In this document: one piece after another, positions 797 through 25,060 of the stretch
How the letters are laid out: every line of letters begins with the position of its first letter
How positions within the stretch are numbered: the stretch's first letter is position 1
Assembly (NCBI RefSeq): GCF_000711695.1
Contig: NW_013546872.1
Span: forward strand, 1-31,315
Source of the DNA: Tilletiaria anomala UBC 951
Lineage: Eukaryota > Basidiomycota > Exobasidiomycetes > Georgefischeriales > Tilletiariaceae
Length of the DNA: 31,315 nucleotides
Direction of reading: 5' to 3'
The notes under the pieces: generated by a model
The model's input: the letters and a program-made list of their open reading frames with translations, nothing else
Told to the model about the DNA's origin: nothing
Databases searched by the model: none
Translations under genes and position numbers: made by a program

Positions 797-3102
<2,306 letters not shown>

Positions 3103-15561: not shown

Positions 15562-18500
15562 TCATTTGAACCCGAATGTCTGCTGCTGCATCAGCGGACT
15601 TGCCGGCCCGTTCCAGCCGTGCCCATTTTGAGAGCCATAAGGCGTGCCGTTGGGGGACCCCTTGTAGTCAAATCCGCCCTTGTTGCCGATGTTGATCGTG
15701 CTGCTCGTGCGCGACGAATCCCCTCCATCGGCGTACGGTGCCTTTGGCTTGCGGACGCGCAGCTGTCGCGCTGGCCAGCCAGCGTAGACAGCGCCAGCCT
15801 CTGCAATCTCGCCTGAGGCGACGAGCGTGTGCTCCAAAAGGATCGAGCGCGGCTCCATGCTGGCACCTGAGAGAAGACGACTCCCTGAACGCATGGCGCA
15901 GCCGTCACCAATGCGAAGCTTGTTGAGGCTGAAACGCCCTCTGGAGTTGATGTGAGCGACGACAGACGCGTCATCGATCGAGACGTAATCGCCCATCGTG
16001 ACCATTTCCGGTTCAGTCAGCTGCAAAGACGGCTTGCCACCTGCCCAGATCGCACACTCGCGGCCAATATGAGCGCCGAGCGCACGCAGGTACCAGACAG
16101 CGTAGATCGAGCCAGAGATGCAGCCAATGACATGGCCGCCAAAGCCTCTCCCTAGCAAGCGCTGGAGCGTAAGGTGAAGCTGCCAGCGTTGGCAGTAGCT
16201 GCTCTTGTCCCAGTCGTATCGCCCTTCGCGGCGTCTTCCAATGACGGCCCACTTAGTTCCGATTACCCATGCAAAGGCGAGCATGCACTGAATGAACATA
16301 ATGATGACAAAACAAATGGCGATGGATGCATAGAGAAGCCCGGGGCGGTACCAGTGATCGGCGAACAGAAATGCGGCCTTATCTCCGAATTTACTTCGGA
16401 GAAAGTTGAGGAGCAGAACTGTCGCGGCGGCTGGAGTCGCCCAGTAGGCCGAGGCGAAGACGGACATGAAGATGTTGATGGTCACCAGCATCAAGTACGG
16501 GAAGACAAAGAAGTTGGCTTGGCGTTTGTAGAACGCGCGACCGAATGGCGTGAGCGTCTCGTCCTCGCCGCCCATGGCTTCTTGCTTGGCGGCCTTGCCG
16601 AAGCTGACAGCCTCGCCGTTCTTTGCACCCATCCACACCGAGTTTTCCTCGTAGGAACCATTGCGGCGTGCCAAGGCACCGGAGCCCATGACGCACTGTT
16701 TGCCAATGCTGCATCCGGGTAGAAGCACGACTCTGTCCGCAATCATCGCCCCGCGTCCGACGCGCACGCGAGCCCAGCCAATACTGTCGGAAGTAAAAAC
16801 TTCGGAACGTGAGCCAAAAACGACGTCATCGCCAATCTCTAGCAGCTCCGGGTCTGGGCAGTAGATGCCAGAGCCTGGCCAATAGACGCGTCGGCCGATC
16901 TTGGCGCCCATGGCACGATAGATGACGGAGGTCATTTCATAGTGCGTACCCAGGAGCGAGAAAGCACGTCTCAACTGGGGTTGAGACAACAGCTCGGCCC
17001 CAATCCAGCGACGGAGCAGCGAAAGCTCCGTGGCGTTGCGCATGGAGCCCTCGCGGTTGAGGCCGAAGCAACGTTTGACGACGACACCGAGTATGAGGTT
17101 CATGAGCGGCGGCATGGCATTGCGCACGACGCGAGCGACGTAATGCCATCCAATACGGCGCGGGTAGGCGAACCAGGCAATGACGCCCTCGATGCTGTCG
17201 TGCCTGTTGAACGAGAATGGCTGCGAGAGAAGCATGAAAAGCGCTGCGAACCAGGGCACATAGCCGAGGAATTTGACGAAGAATCGGATCGGGACGCCGA
17301 CCAACGCAATCAGCCACAAAGAGGGACGCGGGATACCTGCCCTGTTGAATGCTGCGTACGCATCGGAGGACGGCTCCTCGTGTGAGGACGACTGCGGGCC
17401 CCAGACAGTGCCGTCAGCAAGGCGTGCACCGGGCGAGATCTGGGTGAAGGTGTTGACGACGCAGTCGCGGCCGATGATGATAGGCTCCAGACGGAAGTAG
17501 CCATCGCGCTCAACGCAGAACCCGCGAACGAGCGACTTGTCGATACGTGCCCCATCGTGAACAGTGATCAGGTCGTACTCGCCTAGCTTAGCATACTTGT
17601 CGATCTTGACGTCTGAGCCGATGGACATCCCGAGGAGACGGTAGTAGCACTTTTGAAGATCGGGGGTCAGCCCAAAGAGACCCTTTCCAGCCGTCTTGAG
17701 CGACTGGTTGACGATCCACCAGCGCAGATGGTAGTTGCACCACATGGGGTACTTGCCAGGCTTGTACCGGCCTATGATGAGCCACTTGAACGCGATGGCA
17801 GTGACGGGGCAGATGATACGGCTTGTAAACCTTGCGACGATCAGCGAGGCGAGCAGGACGGCTACGCGCTCCCAGAAGTTGTCAGAAATGTAATAAGCCG
17901 AGAAGGCGAGGCCGTGCAGGATGACGGTCCACGTCCAGGCCGCTTTGAAAGGGTAGAAGAAAAGGAGTGGCATGAGTTGGATGAACATGACCCACGGGTG
18001 GCTCTGGCTGCGAGGCTGGTAGTCATGGCTGGACAGCGTGTCGCTAGGGTCATCATCGTCGTAGCGATGGGCGCCGAGGAAGCTAGAGCTGGGCAGGCCG
18101 CTCTTCTCATCGTAGTATCCATCCATGTCATCATCTTCGTCGTCCTCTCCGTCGCCGATCTCCTCCTCGATGACCTCTGCGATGCCCGCGACGGTCGAGT
18201 TGTTGAAGAGCGAAGAGACCTCAAGAGAGACGCCTGTCTCCTTGCGGATCAAGTGGACCAGACGGCCGAGCAGCAGACTGTTGCCACCAAGCAGGAAGAA
18301 GTCCGACTCGGCCGTGATGGTGCCAGACTCGGTATCAAGCAACTTGGCAATGATGTCGCGGACAATGATCGCCGTGCGCGACATGGAGGACGCATTCTGT
18401 GCCTTGACCTCCTCCTCCATTGTGTCAAAGTCGATCTGGCCGTTGACCTTGGCGAGCGGCTGACGAAAGACGTGCAGCGGGTTCGGCACGACGTAACCAT

Positions 18501-20696
18501 GAAGGACCTGCGCCAGTGCTCGATCGATGTCTGCCGCATCGTAATCTGCATCCTCTTCCACTTGGATGAACGCTTCCGGTGCGCCGTCCTTGCGTTGCCG
18601 CACGGCCGCCTCGACGATACCGGGGATGCGGTAGCAGGCGCGCTCGACTGCACGCACATCAATGGAGACAACGTTGCAGGGGATCGGCTCGGACAGGGGC
18701 ACGTTTTTGTCGGGCGCCTTCGCCTCAAAGTGCCGCTGCAGTGCAGGCACATCGTCAGAGAGGGGCCCAATGCCGAGACGAGTACCAAGTTTGATGCGCA
18801 ACGGCTTGCCTGCCTGGTTCTTGGGCAAGTCATCCATGTACACTACCGCAAACGGCCACTTGGACGGATGCAGGTGGGAGCGCAGGAGGTTTTGAAGTTC
18901 CGCTAGGCCAATGCGTGGTTGGTTCGGGACGGGCACGACGACGACGCCGATCGTCTCTTGCAGGACGGCGTGTTCAATAGAGAAGGCAAGCGTTTGCTTG
19001 ACGCGTTCTTTGCATGCCTGCGTGATGGCTTCCTCAACTTCGAAAGGTGAGACGACCTCGCCACCCTTGTTGATGATCTCCTTCGACCGACCAGTGATGT
19101 AGATGTAGCCGTCAGCGTCCATGTGGCCCATGTCGCCGGAGTCGAACCACCCTTCGGTTGAGAATGAGGATGCGTCGAGCGGCTGACCAATCTCGACTTC
19201 ATAGCCTGAGAACGTGGGTAGGCCGCGCACAGAAACAGCGCCAGTCTGCCCGATAGGGAGTTCACGCTCGCGGTTGAACGGATCGCGAATGGAAATGTCT
19301 GGCCCGCAAGCGATGCCTGAACAGCCTGGCCGGTCGAGTTGGTAATGAGTCGGTGGGGAGGCGATAGGCATGCTATGATGCAGGAACAATCGGCATCGCA
19401 CTGTTCAGCAAAGGTGTTGCAATGCACGGCTCAAACGCTCGAGACTCACCATTCTGTCATACCATACGACGGCAGGACAGCAGTGCCGCTAAATGTCTCC
19501 TTGAGCTGCACGGCCAGTGATGGCAGCAGACCGCCGGCGGCATTTGCGATCATCTTAATCTTGGTTTCTTTGCTCGCATCGATGCCCTCTGGCTTCGAAG
19601 CCAGGATGGCGTGGTGCATGGTCGGAGCGGCGTAATACCTGTGCCACGAGTGAGAGACACGGAGCATCAAGAGTGTGGCAGGTAAGTGATCGCAATGCGA
19701 GGCATTAGGGCGAGAATGAAAAAGGTATGGGAGACTAACCATGTGGCACCGAGCTGTTTGGCGAGTTTCCACCACGCAGTGGCGTCAAAGCCAGCACACA
19801 TGATGGCGCTGCCGCACGAGAACATGGGCGCCCACAGGTTACGGACGATCCCGCCGACATGGAAGAGCGGCATCATGTTCACTGCACAAGAATGTGGGAG
19901 ATGCAGGTCAGCATCGTAGGCAGCAAGAAAGGGGCCATCTGCGACGGAACGCACTGTTGACCGAGTCTGGTTTGAGCTCCCACGAGAACACGACGCAGCA
20001 TGTGCCGACGATGAGGTGCCTGAGCGAGTACGGCACGACCTTTTTCTTTCCGGACGTGCCAGATGTGTGCAAGACGAGACTCGAGTCGCGCAGGCCGTGC
20101 AGCTGAGACTTTGGCAGGCTGCCGAGTTGATACGGCGTCGGTCCATCCGGCTCGAGGACGGCCATATCGAAGAGGCCCGCTGGCCCGACGCCGCGTGGGT
20201 CGATGAAGATGACCTCCATGTTTTCTTCCTCGAACAGCGACCACAGCTCGAGGCGGTCAATCGCATCACGCGTCGTGACGACCGCACGTGCACGCAGGCG
20301 CACAGCATCGTCGCGTAGCTCACCGGCCGTGCAGCTCGCGTTGACCGGAGCGCAGGTGTGGTATGCGGCGACGGAGAGCAGCGCGAGTGCGTTCTCGGGG
20401 CCCGTGGGCAGCGCCATCATCACGCGGTCATTTTGCTTGAGCGGATTGCCGCGCGAGCGCGTCGAGACGGGCAGGGTGAAGTTGGAGATGAAATGCTTGA
20501 TCGTTCTATGGTCCAGTGGCCCACGTGATAGGTCCGGGGACCAGATCGCTGGCCGCGGTGAGTTGCAGATACAGTCGAGCAATGTTGTGGCCCGACCCGA
20601 CTCGGTGATGTGTTCTGCTAGGTGGTCACCGAGCGACCGCGTCTGCGGCCGCTGCGGCAGGCCGTAGATGAAGTCCAGGGGCCACTCGGCAGACAT
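15562..20696 (-). CDS. NRPS-like membrane megasynthetase, epsilon-poly-lysine-synthetase (Pls) type, four exons
   Basis: Exons (- strand): 20696-19955, 19881-19740, 19638-19450, 19372-15562; introns of 73, 101 and 77 nt; 1627 residues. The adenylation domain has A3 LHTSGTSGKKKVV (209-221), A5 PSYGMTECMPIASPP, A7 TEGWFDSGDMG (430-440), A8 GRSKEIINKGGEVVSPFEVE (452-471) and A10 NQAGKPLRIKL with Lys547. A second C-terminal adenylation subdomain follows, ending LAKVNGQIDF. The carrier domain has the attachment Ser723 in FFLLGGNSLLLG. After an acidic linker come membrane helices alternating with three soluble blocks at about 940-1016, 1181-1273 and 1455-1555. These are rich in the hexapeptide repeats of left-handed beta-helix acyltransferases. 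This A-T-TM/C1-C3 layout is that of bacterial Pls and the NRPS terminal domain family; a fungal member (Epichloe VibA) has, to my knowledge, been linked to epsilon-poly-L-lysine. The substrate here is not established. It is probably an integral membrane enzyme needing a phosphopantetheinyl transferase. Confidence 0.92.
18277..18279 (-). other. Phosphopantetheine attachment serine of the carrier domain
   Basis: The codon for Ser723 lies within LGGNSL, the carrier-domain signature. Its presence means the carrier domain is likely active once modified. Confidence 0.85.
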
Positions 20697-22376: not shown

Positions 22377-25060
22377 TCAACTATGACTAGTGGGCGTCCA
22401 GCTGACAAGCGGTACACTTTGTGGAGTGCTGCTGTCCGCGGACGTGAGGTCGTCCCACTGCGGCTGCCACAGTGTTTGGATTGTCGTCGCGCCAGACGGG
22501 TTGGGGATGTCGATGATGAGCGTTGTGACGCCCGTGTTGATCGGATCGCCACCATTGGCTGGGTCCGGGTCTGTGCCGTACAGCCTTTCAGCGGGCGGAC
22601 CGTTGTGGGTGAACTGAGCATTGGGCGGCGAGAGGATCTGAACCTTGAGCGTCTTCGCCGAGATTGGCACATTGAGGCCGATTGCTGCGTTTGGGTCGTC
22701 GATTGACTTGATCGTCAGCGTTGCAATGCTGCCGCTGATGGATACAGTCGCGTTGGTCTGTATGCGCCACTGGATACCGTTCTGCGCTACGCCCGCCGCG
22801 ATCTCGTCCTGCAACAGCACCTGCCTGCGGCCGTTAAGCAAGCGGATGCCGCGCTGGACCTTGTCGGCTGTTTGGTTGTACGCCGAACTCATGTCAGTGA
22901 CAAAGTACGCAATGTCGTTCGTGCCAGGCTTGTAGTTGATGTCTGACGTCTGCGTCAAATTGTGTTGCGAGCCCCATGTGTTGCTCGGCGCAGCCATCAC
23001 GCTCTGGTCGGCCTTGTTGATAACGAGTGTGTTCTGGCCTTGCGTGCCCTTTCGGAAGTACTGCCAGCGAGTGGAGCCTTGGGTCTCGTTGCTAAAGTAG
23101 TCCGTGCTCAGGTACTGCGCCGAGCCGTACTCTCCAGCCCAGCGGGTCCCCATCGCATCGAGGACAAAGTCACCGACATCAAGGTCACCGTGTGTCTGGT
23201 GCCCAGTGAGCGCGGACGCCTTCATGGCGACGAAAAGTCCGTTAAAGTCGGTCCACGAGCTGCGCATGCTCATCCAAGATCCGCGCGGATCATCAAAGTA
23301 CCTGTCCAGCGGGAGATTGTTCCAGAAGGCGCCCTTTGCGCTCGTGTCGTACCAGAACATGGCGATTGGGTCCCCGAGCGCATCTGCGCGATCGCGCTGG
23401 AAGAGCGTAAGCAGCGGTTGCTTGTAATAGTTGCCCCACCAGAGCATGGCGTTGGCGTTGGTGCTAAATTTGTTCGGGCCGTGGTCTCCATAGTTGAACA
23501 GACCGCCGTTGCCGCTGACGTACATGTGGTAGTAACCGGTCTGGTAGAACTTCTGGTTCAAGCCCTGATTGTTTCCTGTCGCACTGACAAGGGCAGACTC
23601 GGCACGAGCGGCAGCGTTGGTGCCAAAGTACCAGTAGTTAGCCGTCTCGGCCCAGGTGCCATCGGCGTAAGGGCCATTAAAGCAGTTGTTCTTGATATTA
23701 TCGATGGCATGATTGACAACCTTTGTCGCAGTCTGGCTCAGGTCTTTGGCGTCGTCGCCTATGATGGCCAGCGCACCCAGCAGCATGCCCGAGTTGCACA
23801 CACAATTCCAATTTCCATTTCCATTAACATCCTTTTTCCACCAGCCGTCGTCGGTTTGGTACTGGTTAAGACCTGGCGTGAGACCAAACTGGATGATCCA
23901 GTCCACGATGAACGCCTTCTGCGTGGTGTTCCAGGCGTCGTACATCCAGTCAAATGCGATTGCAAACGCCGCAGTCATCTCTGCGGTATCGAGAAAGTGC
24001 GCCGGGTTCCAGTGTCCATTAGGATGAGGGGGTGGTCCCTGACCGAACTGCACATTGCTGTTGTTACCTGCTGCGACTGATAGCTCCTCCCACGCCCTCT
24101 GCACCCAGCTCCGATCATTGGTCATCTTGTATGCGTAGCCCCAAGACCGGAGGCGTAGCTGTACCTCGCGAGAAACGTCGAGAATACCGGACCTATTGTA
24201 TCCGCCATCAATAGAGTAGTTGGTAGGAGGCATGGCCGCGAAAGCAGTGGCATTGGCCATGACCGAATCGTTCATGATGGTGAGATAAGCATCCTTGTTG
24301 ATTTTTTCGGCCATACATGACCACATGTAGCCGGGTGCGATAATGCGCGGATGCGAACGCAGGTTGTTCAAGCTGAGAGACGAAGGATCCGTGTCGTCAT
24401 TGCATGTGACTGCCGGGTTGCCATTGCCTGTCGGCGCAGCAGTGTTAACAGTCGGCAGAAAACGGGGGTTTCCATAAGGATCTGTGCTGCCGTAGAACAG
24501 CTTGTCCACGCCGCCTGCTTCTGCGTGGGCATTCGCCGTGCTCGCTTGCTTTGGGTTGTCAACGTGGGCACTCCCGACACTGTTGGAGTTGTTCCGCTTT
24601 GCTGCTCGGGAGCCGAAAATAGCCCCGAGGACAGCACCTGCGATGATCAGGACGAGAATGGGAAGCCCAATCAGGAGCCATTTGCTGCGGCGCTTCTGAG
24701 CAGGTGCCTTGTACGAATATTTCTGTGCCGCATGTTGAGCTGGAAGATCCAGCGGGAGAGGGTGCAACAAATTAGCAAGGAATGGATAACTCCTCGCCTG
24801 CCTAGGGGCTACTTGCATTGCTTACCTGCGTTCGGCTGCTGGCTCCAGCCTGGTTGCTCGTAATCCTTGGCAGGAGTACCACCGTACGATGCACCAGCAG
24901 CTGGCGTGTCCGAATAGTAGTATCCGCTCTGGTTAGCAGCGTTGTTGTTGTACATGCCGCCGGTGGTCTGTTGTGGATAGTCCGAGTAGCCGCCACCTTG
25001 GACTTGATACCCAGAGGTGTTGGGGAGAATGTGTGTGTCCTGCGGGCGTTGGTAGGACAT
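22377..25060 (-). CDS. Type II membrane protein with a heparinase II/III-like (alginate/chondroitin lyase fold) domain, two exons
   Basis: Exons (- strand): 25060-24826 and 24739-22377, with an 86-nt intron (GTAAGC donor, CCAG acceptor); 865 residues. The N-terminal ~95 residues are Gly/Tyr/Gln-rich and cytosolic. Basic KRRSK precedes one hydrophobic anchor at about 99-121, with no signal-peptidase site, so the bulk should face outward. At least ten N-x-S/T sequons agree. A helical toroid region carries HWNPAHFLDTAEM (321-333), NWNCVCNSGMLLGALAI (388-404) and TWAETANYWYFGT (440-452). The beta-sandwich region has HQTHGDLDVGDFVLDAMGTR (592-611), the heparinase II/III signature. His residues in these blocks and a Tyr in NYWY are the likely catalytic set. 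Such enzymes cleave uronic-acid polysaccharides by beta-elimination; the substrate here, perhaps a wall or capsule glycan, is unknown. It lies upstream of and in the same direction as the NRPS-like gene, with 1680 bases between. Confidence 0.88.

Follow-up and report, generated by a model that had tools for sequence, protein, structure and literature searches.

A gene on the minus strand of a 31,315-nucleotide stretch of contig NW_013546872.1 from the basidiomycete Tilletiaria anomala UBC 951 (hereafter, the window) encodes a 1627-residue protein that consists of an adenylating domain, a single carrier domain and a terminal region combining membrane segments with left-handed beta-helices. The terminal region is, by profile and tblastn comparison, a distant homolog of the terminal domain of Pls/PosA synthetases, whereas the adenylation (A) domain is, as judged by profiles, residues and phylogeny, of the carboxylic-acid ligase type and not of the amino-acid type found in Pls and PosA. 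We propose, giving the idea roughly even chances, that this protein is a hybrid homopolymer synthetase that would make a polymalate-like polyester of a hydroxy-(di)acid, with malate as the leading candidate. The ligase-type A domain would convert a carboxylic acid lacking an alpha-amine to its acyl-AMP, the likeliest substrate being L-malate or another hydroxy-dicarboxylate; the activated acid would be loaded onto Ser723 of the carrier domain; and the membrane-embedded, Pls-type terminal domain would link the loaded units into a chain. Since it is a hydroxyl group rather than an amine that such a unit would present, the product would be a polyester. The enzyme would have originated from a Pls-type synthetase whose adenylation core gave way to an acyl/oxalate-coenzyme A (CoA)-ligase-like enzyme.

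The gene spans 5135 bp, with a coding sequence of 4884 nt in four exons (20696-19955, 19881-19740, 19638-19450 and 19372-15562, the last including the stop codon) separated by introns of 73, 101 and 77 nt, all GT-AG, and the spliced frame contains no internal stop. The three splice junctions were inferred from motifs and joined by eye. These coordinates and the length of the product coincide with those of the original prediction, which was made from the sequence alone. The features of the gene are as follows.

15562..20696, minus strand: whole gene, ATG to stop, with four exons and three GT-AG introns (1627 aa)
19201..20441, minus strand: adenylation core (AMP-binding, residues 86-415), supported by Pfam, PDB matches and the tree
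19954-19882, 19739-19639 and 19449-19373, minus strand: introns that interrupt the adenylation core
18805..19041, minus strand: first adenylation C-subdomain (residues 469-547, AMP-binding_C), functional-looking, with the A10 lysine in AGKPLR
18418..18663, minus strand: second, truncated A-subdomain of the Pls type (residues ~595-676), detected with hhalign, with the A10 lysine replaced by glutamine (NGQID)
18169..18363, minus strand: carrier domain (thiolation, T, or peptidyl carrier protein, PCP; residues 695-759), with Ser723 in GGNSL, supported by Pfam and alignment
15772..17979, minus strand: terminal domain (residues ~823-1558), supported by TIGR02353, tblastn and an AlphaFold2 model

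A Pfam search with the full protein (E<=0.01) recovered AMP-binding (residues 86-415, E 4.2e-35), AMP-binding_C (469-547), PP-binding (695-759, E 5.4e-13) and a single Hexapep stretch (1227-1257), and nothing else. As had been predicted for this protein, no condensation, reductase or thioesterase domain is present by Pfam, nor among the best 25 of 105 NCBIfam rows. The carrier is connected to the membrane part by an acidic linker, with 14 aspartates in residues 761-815.

The nearest solved relatives of residues ~86-551 are oxalate-CoA ligases (AtAAE3 and Pcs60) and malonyl-CoA synthetases. In particular, among the best 60 of 102 PDB matches, oxalate-CoA ligases come on top (6qjz, 5ie0 and 8aff; best 1.9e-48), followed by malonyl-CoA synthetases. 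The NCBIfam list is headed by two fatty-acid-CoA ligase models (189.9 and 189.8 bits); TIGR01733, the amino-acid adenylation model, which scores 375-433 bits on three bacterial Pls controls, is not found among the best 25 of 105 rows, the lowest of which scores 92.9 bits. In a tree of 19 rows, the A domain of the window clusters with five acyl-CoA ligases of bacteria and is separated from the 13 A domains of Pls (support 100/100). Motifs A3, A5, A7, A8 and A10 are all recognizable, and this half of the protein looks competent as a ligase. A relative of oxalate- and malonate-CoA ligases is a plausible origin for an activator of malate.

The residues of the substrate pocket point in the same direction. 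In PosA, Asp217 binds the alpha-amine and Glu221 binds the side-chain (terminal) amine of the substrate (PMC10522769). Both residues are kept in all 85 bacterial Pls/PosA sequences compared and in each of 31 open reading frames (ORFs) bearing an A domain (28 + 3; see below), which were retrieved by the TIGR02353 family model or by the window protein itself as the query. Neither is present in the window protein, for which one alignment gives His and another Val in the Asp217 column. The Glu221 column holds Arg261, an assignment that crosses a length difference of one or two residues, depending on the alignment.

19841..19843, minus strand: Arg261 (in FHVGGIVR), aligned with PosA Glu221; candidate binder of a distal carboxylate

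Seven aligned ligases have Ala, Gly, Val, Cys or Asp in this column. An arginine in place of the PosA grip on a distal ammonium group would suit a distal carboxylate, a hint and no more. The pocket thus resembles neither Pls nor, as discussed below, the oxalate ligases, and together with the retention of the terminal domain over its whole length this is compatible with a polymer built from something other than malate or a diamino acid, such as a polyester of another hydroxy acid or a polyamide of an omega-amino acid without an alpha-amine. We consider such a product unlikely, given that nothing points positively to any particular unit and that a matching architecture was found in print for polymalate alone.

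The original prediction assigned the whole protein to the Pls layout, with a poly-lysine-like or isopeptide-type product, and made kinship with Pls-type proteins a test of this assignment. The layout applies to the back end, where the terminal domain is indeed related to Pls, and fails for the front end, where the A domain belongs with the acyl-CoA ligases and lacks the amine-binding residues. A cationic homopolymer of the Pls/Epls kind (poly-lysine, poly-ornithine or similar), which would agree with a carrier and a terminal domain of the Pls type, is therefore disfavored by the class of the A domain on the evidence of residues, tree and profiles; in addition, the major fungal clusters in a published network are under 1500 aa, and the quoted fungal pocket code starts with D (PMC10522769). 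We regard this product as very improbable. The same prediction named VibA as the Epichloe synthetase; VibA is a transcription factor, and the synthetase is Epls (PMC7179176).

A feature missing from the earlier description is a second A-subdomain between the ligase and the carrier. By Pfam alone it reaches only E 0.032, but the comparison of residues ~595-676 with a Pls A-subdomain profile using hhalign gave an alignment of 82 columns with 30% identity (probability 95.5, E 1.5e-8). Because A-subdomains of every kind look alike, both subdomains of the window protein were compared with two profiles of seven sequences each, one for Pls and one for the ligases. The first subdomain fits the ligase profile (probability 99.5, score 124.1) better than the Pls profile (93.9 and 44.6, respectively), and the second shows the opposite preference (95.1 and 48.6 for Pls; 19.1 and 24.8 for the ligases). 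When 34 tiles covering the protein were run against the Pls profile, five exceeded a probability of 50, three of them in the first subdomain and two in the second, and 100 shuffled versions of the second subdomain reached a top probability of 3.0. The match of the second subdomain begins after the first ~17 profile columns; the hinge is thus absent, as is the A10 lysine. Hence this subdomain appears to be a dead remnant that now serves as a linker between ligase and carrier. In the simplest history, the ligase would have replaced the Pls adenylation core and left the old subdomain behind as the linker.

A dead subdomain in mid-protein, in a gene whose introns were joined by eye and not from cDNA, could also suggest an artefact of the gene model or assembly, with two genes read as one. 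However, the ligase end, the dead subdomain, the carrier and the terminal domain all lie in exon 4 (residues ~359-1627), within an open frame of 1280 codons, and each junction upstream preserves the frame across a domain core; an artefact is hardly credible. A broader version of the hybrid reading casts the Pls-type terminal domain as a membrane homopolymerase of general use, not restricted to diamino acids and re-plumbed here, by exchange of the amino-acid activator for a carboxylic-acid ligase, for a polyester, perhaps a new one and not polymalate, with the second subdomain as a fossil linker; we offer this as a tentative and rather doubtful suggestion.

The kinship of the other half of the protein with Pls/PosA is indicated by several lines of evidence. 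The NCBIfam model of the Pls/PosA terminal domain, TIGR02353, matches in three stretches with 183.7 bits (E 5.4e-54). When this model was run over 194 genomes (the phylum of locus L067), 163 matched at E<=0.001 and only three of these scored above the cut-off; likewise, 13 of the 14 named control genomes matched, one above the cut-off. Weak matches to this model therefore mean little; the yardstick is that the matches above the cut-off in the 194 genomes score 684-729 bits and the best one below it 114.3 bits (a 239-aa frame), with the window protein in between. A tblastn search with the last 813 residues matched 61 plasmid records, with alignments spanning 80% or more of the query for 25 of them; identity is 20.4-30.0% in the 40 of these 61 records that were listed, and the 20 annotated rows among the 40 comprise 14 Pls/PosA, four amino-acid adenylation and two non-ribosomal peptide synthetase entries. 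From the carrier onward, 100 columns are at least 95% conserved in the 85 bacterial sequences, and the window protein matches 54 of these. One conserved residue is listed separately.

15952..15954, minus strand: His1498, kept in all 85 bacterial sequences and in the window protein; candidate catalytic base

An AlphaFold2 model of residues 821-1586 (33 alignment rows; mean pLDDT 64.1, pTM 0.71, 181 of 766 residues under pLDDT 50) shows three units, each made up of a helical segment and the beta-helix block that follows it. Helix pairs one and two are clear, and the third segment consists of several low-confidence helices; in a hydropathy scan, some four peaks stand out clearly, compared with the six transmembrane helices in three pairs of Pls/PosA. 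A similar arrangement of helices and beta-helices is seen in a predicted model of PosA (PMC10522769). The three hexapeptide-repeat blocks and the Pls-like terminal half that the original prediction proposed are thus borne out, the blocks in the model, Pfam by itself detecting only one clearly. Foldseek searches with the model found hexapeptide acyltransferases, including maltose/galactoside O-acetyltransferases and serine acetyltransferases (best E 4.3e-4, TMq <=0.17, the best ones over ~185 columns).

The polymalate (PMA) synthetase of Aureobasidium melanogenum ATCC 62921 (QHD40385.1), for which the primary paper is reportedly that of Wang et al. (2020), offers a functional parallel. It is described as having transmembrane, A-like, T and C-like domains (PMC11905612), and its 5049-bp gene is said to encode an enzyme with no thioesterase that forms malyl-AMP and then a carrier-bound malyl unit (PMC9210645; a further account is given in PMC10751350). 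The window protein, compared with it by descriptions only, shares the A-like, T and C-like organization, the transmembrane character, the lack of a thioesterase and nearly the size of the gene (5135 bp). A substrate without an alpha-amine, such as that of the PMA synthetase, would fit the ligase-type A domain of the window protein. What the sequence itself shows is the domain order, the kinship of both halves, the missing amine-binding residues and a second, Pls-type subdomain devoid of the A10 lysine; we infer the substrate, the ester linkage, the product, the course of evolution and membership of the same kind of enzyme as the Aureobasidium synthetase.

Several observations weigh against this proposal. 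The score of 183.7 bits lies under the curated TIGR02353 cut-off of 423.1, although the cut-off alone is not decisive because one of the bacterial Pls controls falls under it as well (725.2 bits for L001 and 851.6 for L008 but 358.7 for L009). The terminal-domain model is only of moderate confidence, and the block-3 motif QTHLFEDRxMK of Pls is lost except for the histidine, His1498. On the ligase side, the leading ligase model also gives 157-219 bits to the three bacterial Pls controls, compared to 189.9 for the window protein, so that it is the absence of TIGR01733 from the best 25 rows that separates the window protein from Pls; the branch of the window protein in the tree is long (2.75), and its exact placement was flagged as unsure by the program. 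The motifs HVHG and RSCSAS, common to AtAAE3 and Pcs60 and presumably part of their substrate site, are not kept (HVHG is HVGG and RSCSAS is NAAGGL in the window protein), which makes oxalate unlikely as the substrate, and the arginine that we take to be the substrate-site residue of MatB is not conserved either. In the 12 larger neighboring frames scanned, Pfam named no phosphopantetheinyl transferase, no transporter or export protein and no enzyme of malate metabolism, and hence the substrate draws no support from a gene cluster. The motif GNGGCKCA, which we take to be a calcineurin-type (Crz1) site, occurs 19 times in the window, with 19.2 occurrences expected, and not at all within 1 kb upstream of the start. 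Finally, the resemblance to the PMA synthetase rests on gene size and on domain descriptions by other authors; its 'C-like' domain is presumed, by analogy, to be a Pls-type terminal domain, and a review places its six transmembrane domains at the N-terminus (PMC9210645), in contrast to their C-terminal location in the window protein.

The loss of most of the block-3 motif implies that the terminal reaction may differ from polymerization. Taken with the O-acetyltransferases and serine acetyltransferases among the Foldseek matches and with the fatty-acid-ligase models at the head of the NCBIfam list, it could indicate a membrane acyltransferase that performs a single transfer: the ligase would load a fatty, aryl or dicarboxylic acid, and the beta-helix domain would move it to a lipid, sugar or polyamine. 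We treat this as a real but clearly less probable possibility, considering that three helix/beta-helix units and 54 of the 100 conserved columns have been kept, seemingly more than a single transfer needs, that the top Foldseek matches extend over only ~185 columns with TMq <=0.17, and that the TIGR02353 score of 183.7 bits exceeds the 114.3 bits of the best match below the cut-off in the 194 genomes.

If the polyester reading is correct, one scaffold makes both cationic polyamides (poly-lysine and poly-ornithine) and an anionic polyester, the monomer being set by the activating enzyme that is fused in front. The synthesis of polymalate, still incompletely understood according to a review (PMC9210645), would then find its place in the Pls family, both in evolution and in mechanism. 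The protein would also exemplify how nature exchanged the part of a polymer synthetase that activates the monomer, a lead for the engineering of biodegradable polyesters, and the missing amine anchors and the second, dead A-subdomain would serve as sequence marks in searches of fungal genomes. Should the PMA synthetase itself carry a Pls-type terminal domain and the dead subdomain, the window protein would join that class as a further, new member, and what has been found would be the link between the class and Pls.

The sequence samples behind these counts were defined as follows. The 85 bacterial sequences come from 77 of 80 loci, those with an ORF over 1150 aa, and from eight of 10 plasmid loci, leaving out L006, whose synthetase is divided between two genes, and the unannotated L010. 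The 28 ORFs represent 32 loci (three from the 194-genome scan and 29 from scans of 199 and 398 genomes) minus four, namely L109 (a 285-aa piece, misaligned) and L110, L111 and L112 (second matches without the A-domain region); at least three of the 28 (L091, L107 and L120) belong to genomes already represented among the 85. The three extra ORFs, all of which keep both amine-binding residues, are from three matching genomes of the 398-genome scan that had no locus, and L094-L098 (194-genome scan, below the cut-off) are outside the residue count. With the terminal domain of the window as the query (E<=1e-10), matches were found in six of 199 genomes (the phylum of L082) and 23 of 398 (the phylum of L036), and no swap of the A domain was seen among the matches read from these two scans. 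Searches of bacterial and archaeal contigs with this domain gave 18 pattern matches and no relative, and those of viral contigs no pattern match. In the literature examined, we found no account of a Pls terminal domain preceded by an A domain of the ligase type and nothing relevant on structures of the Pls polymerizing domain.

The surroundings of the gene are of the housekeeping type, as had been noted from the sequence, with neighboring frames for CTP synthase, a GLTSCR1-domain protein, a protein kinase, a Vma12 protein and a heparinase II/III-like protein. The last is an 813-aa frame just upstream of the synthetase (22377-24818, minus strand); its C-terminal domain is heparinase II/III-like, and its translation shows a hydrophobic segment at the N-terminus. 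The CTP synthase (1216-3098, minus strand) has at least two exons in overlapping frames. Scans of the window for tRNA and Rfam families gave no matches.

Among known systems, Pls/PosA, including Epls of Epichloe, share with the window protein the carrier and the full-length terminal domain with its helical segments and beta-helix blocks. The window protein differs from them in the class of the A domain, the absence of the amine anchors, the extra dead A-subdomain, the TIGR02353 score (183.7 bits against the cut-off of 423.1), the mostly lost block-3 motif and some 300 additional residues, the eight bacterial Pls compared being 1323-1347 aa long. Among the plasmid loci, the Pseudonocardia plasmid (L006:2546-6519) carries adjacent genes annotated as AMP-binding and Pls/PosA, a split or broken synthetase, and the protein from the plasmid of Streptomyces sp. 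NBC_00060 (L009:1027-5046), with 358.7 bits on TIGR02353 and an amino-acid A domain, represents a divergent Pls subgroup. Eight annotated plasmid loci have an intact synthetase, and in three of these a phosphopantetheinyl transferase gene lies directly 3' of the Pls/PosA gene.

L002:6438-6995: phosphopantetheinyl transferase gene
L003:6612-7229: phosphopantetheinyl transferase gene
L008:6438-7103: phosphopantetheinyl transferase gene

TmpL and NPS12, described as having an A domain, six transmembrane segments and an FAD/NAD(P) domain and no T domain (for TmpL, PMC2766074), were considered and ruled out, given that by Pfam the window protein contains a T domain and no FAD/NAD(P)-binding domain. 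The oxalate-CoA ligases AtAAE3 and Pcs60 and the malonyl-CoA synthetases are not fused to carrier and membrane domains as the window protein is, and a simple oxalyl-CoA synthetase is ruled out by the PCP, the terminal domain and the lost oxalate-ligase motifs. The same kind of activator feeds a carrier in a bacterium, Gemmobacter aquarius, where a plasmid gene (L101:1399-4020) encodes a ligase-PCP-thioesterase protein. Like the window protein, it has a ligase-type A domain (HVGG, same group in the tree) in front of a PCP; unlike it, this protein ends in a thioesterase, has one A-subdomain by Pfam and lacks the membrane terminal domain. In function, the published system that comes nearest is the PMA synthetase of Aureobasidium.

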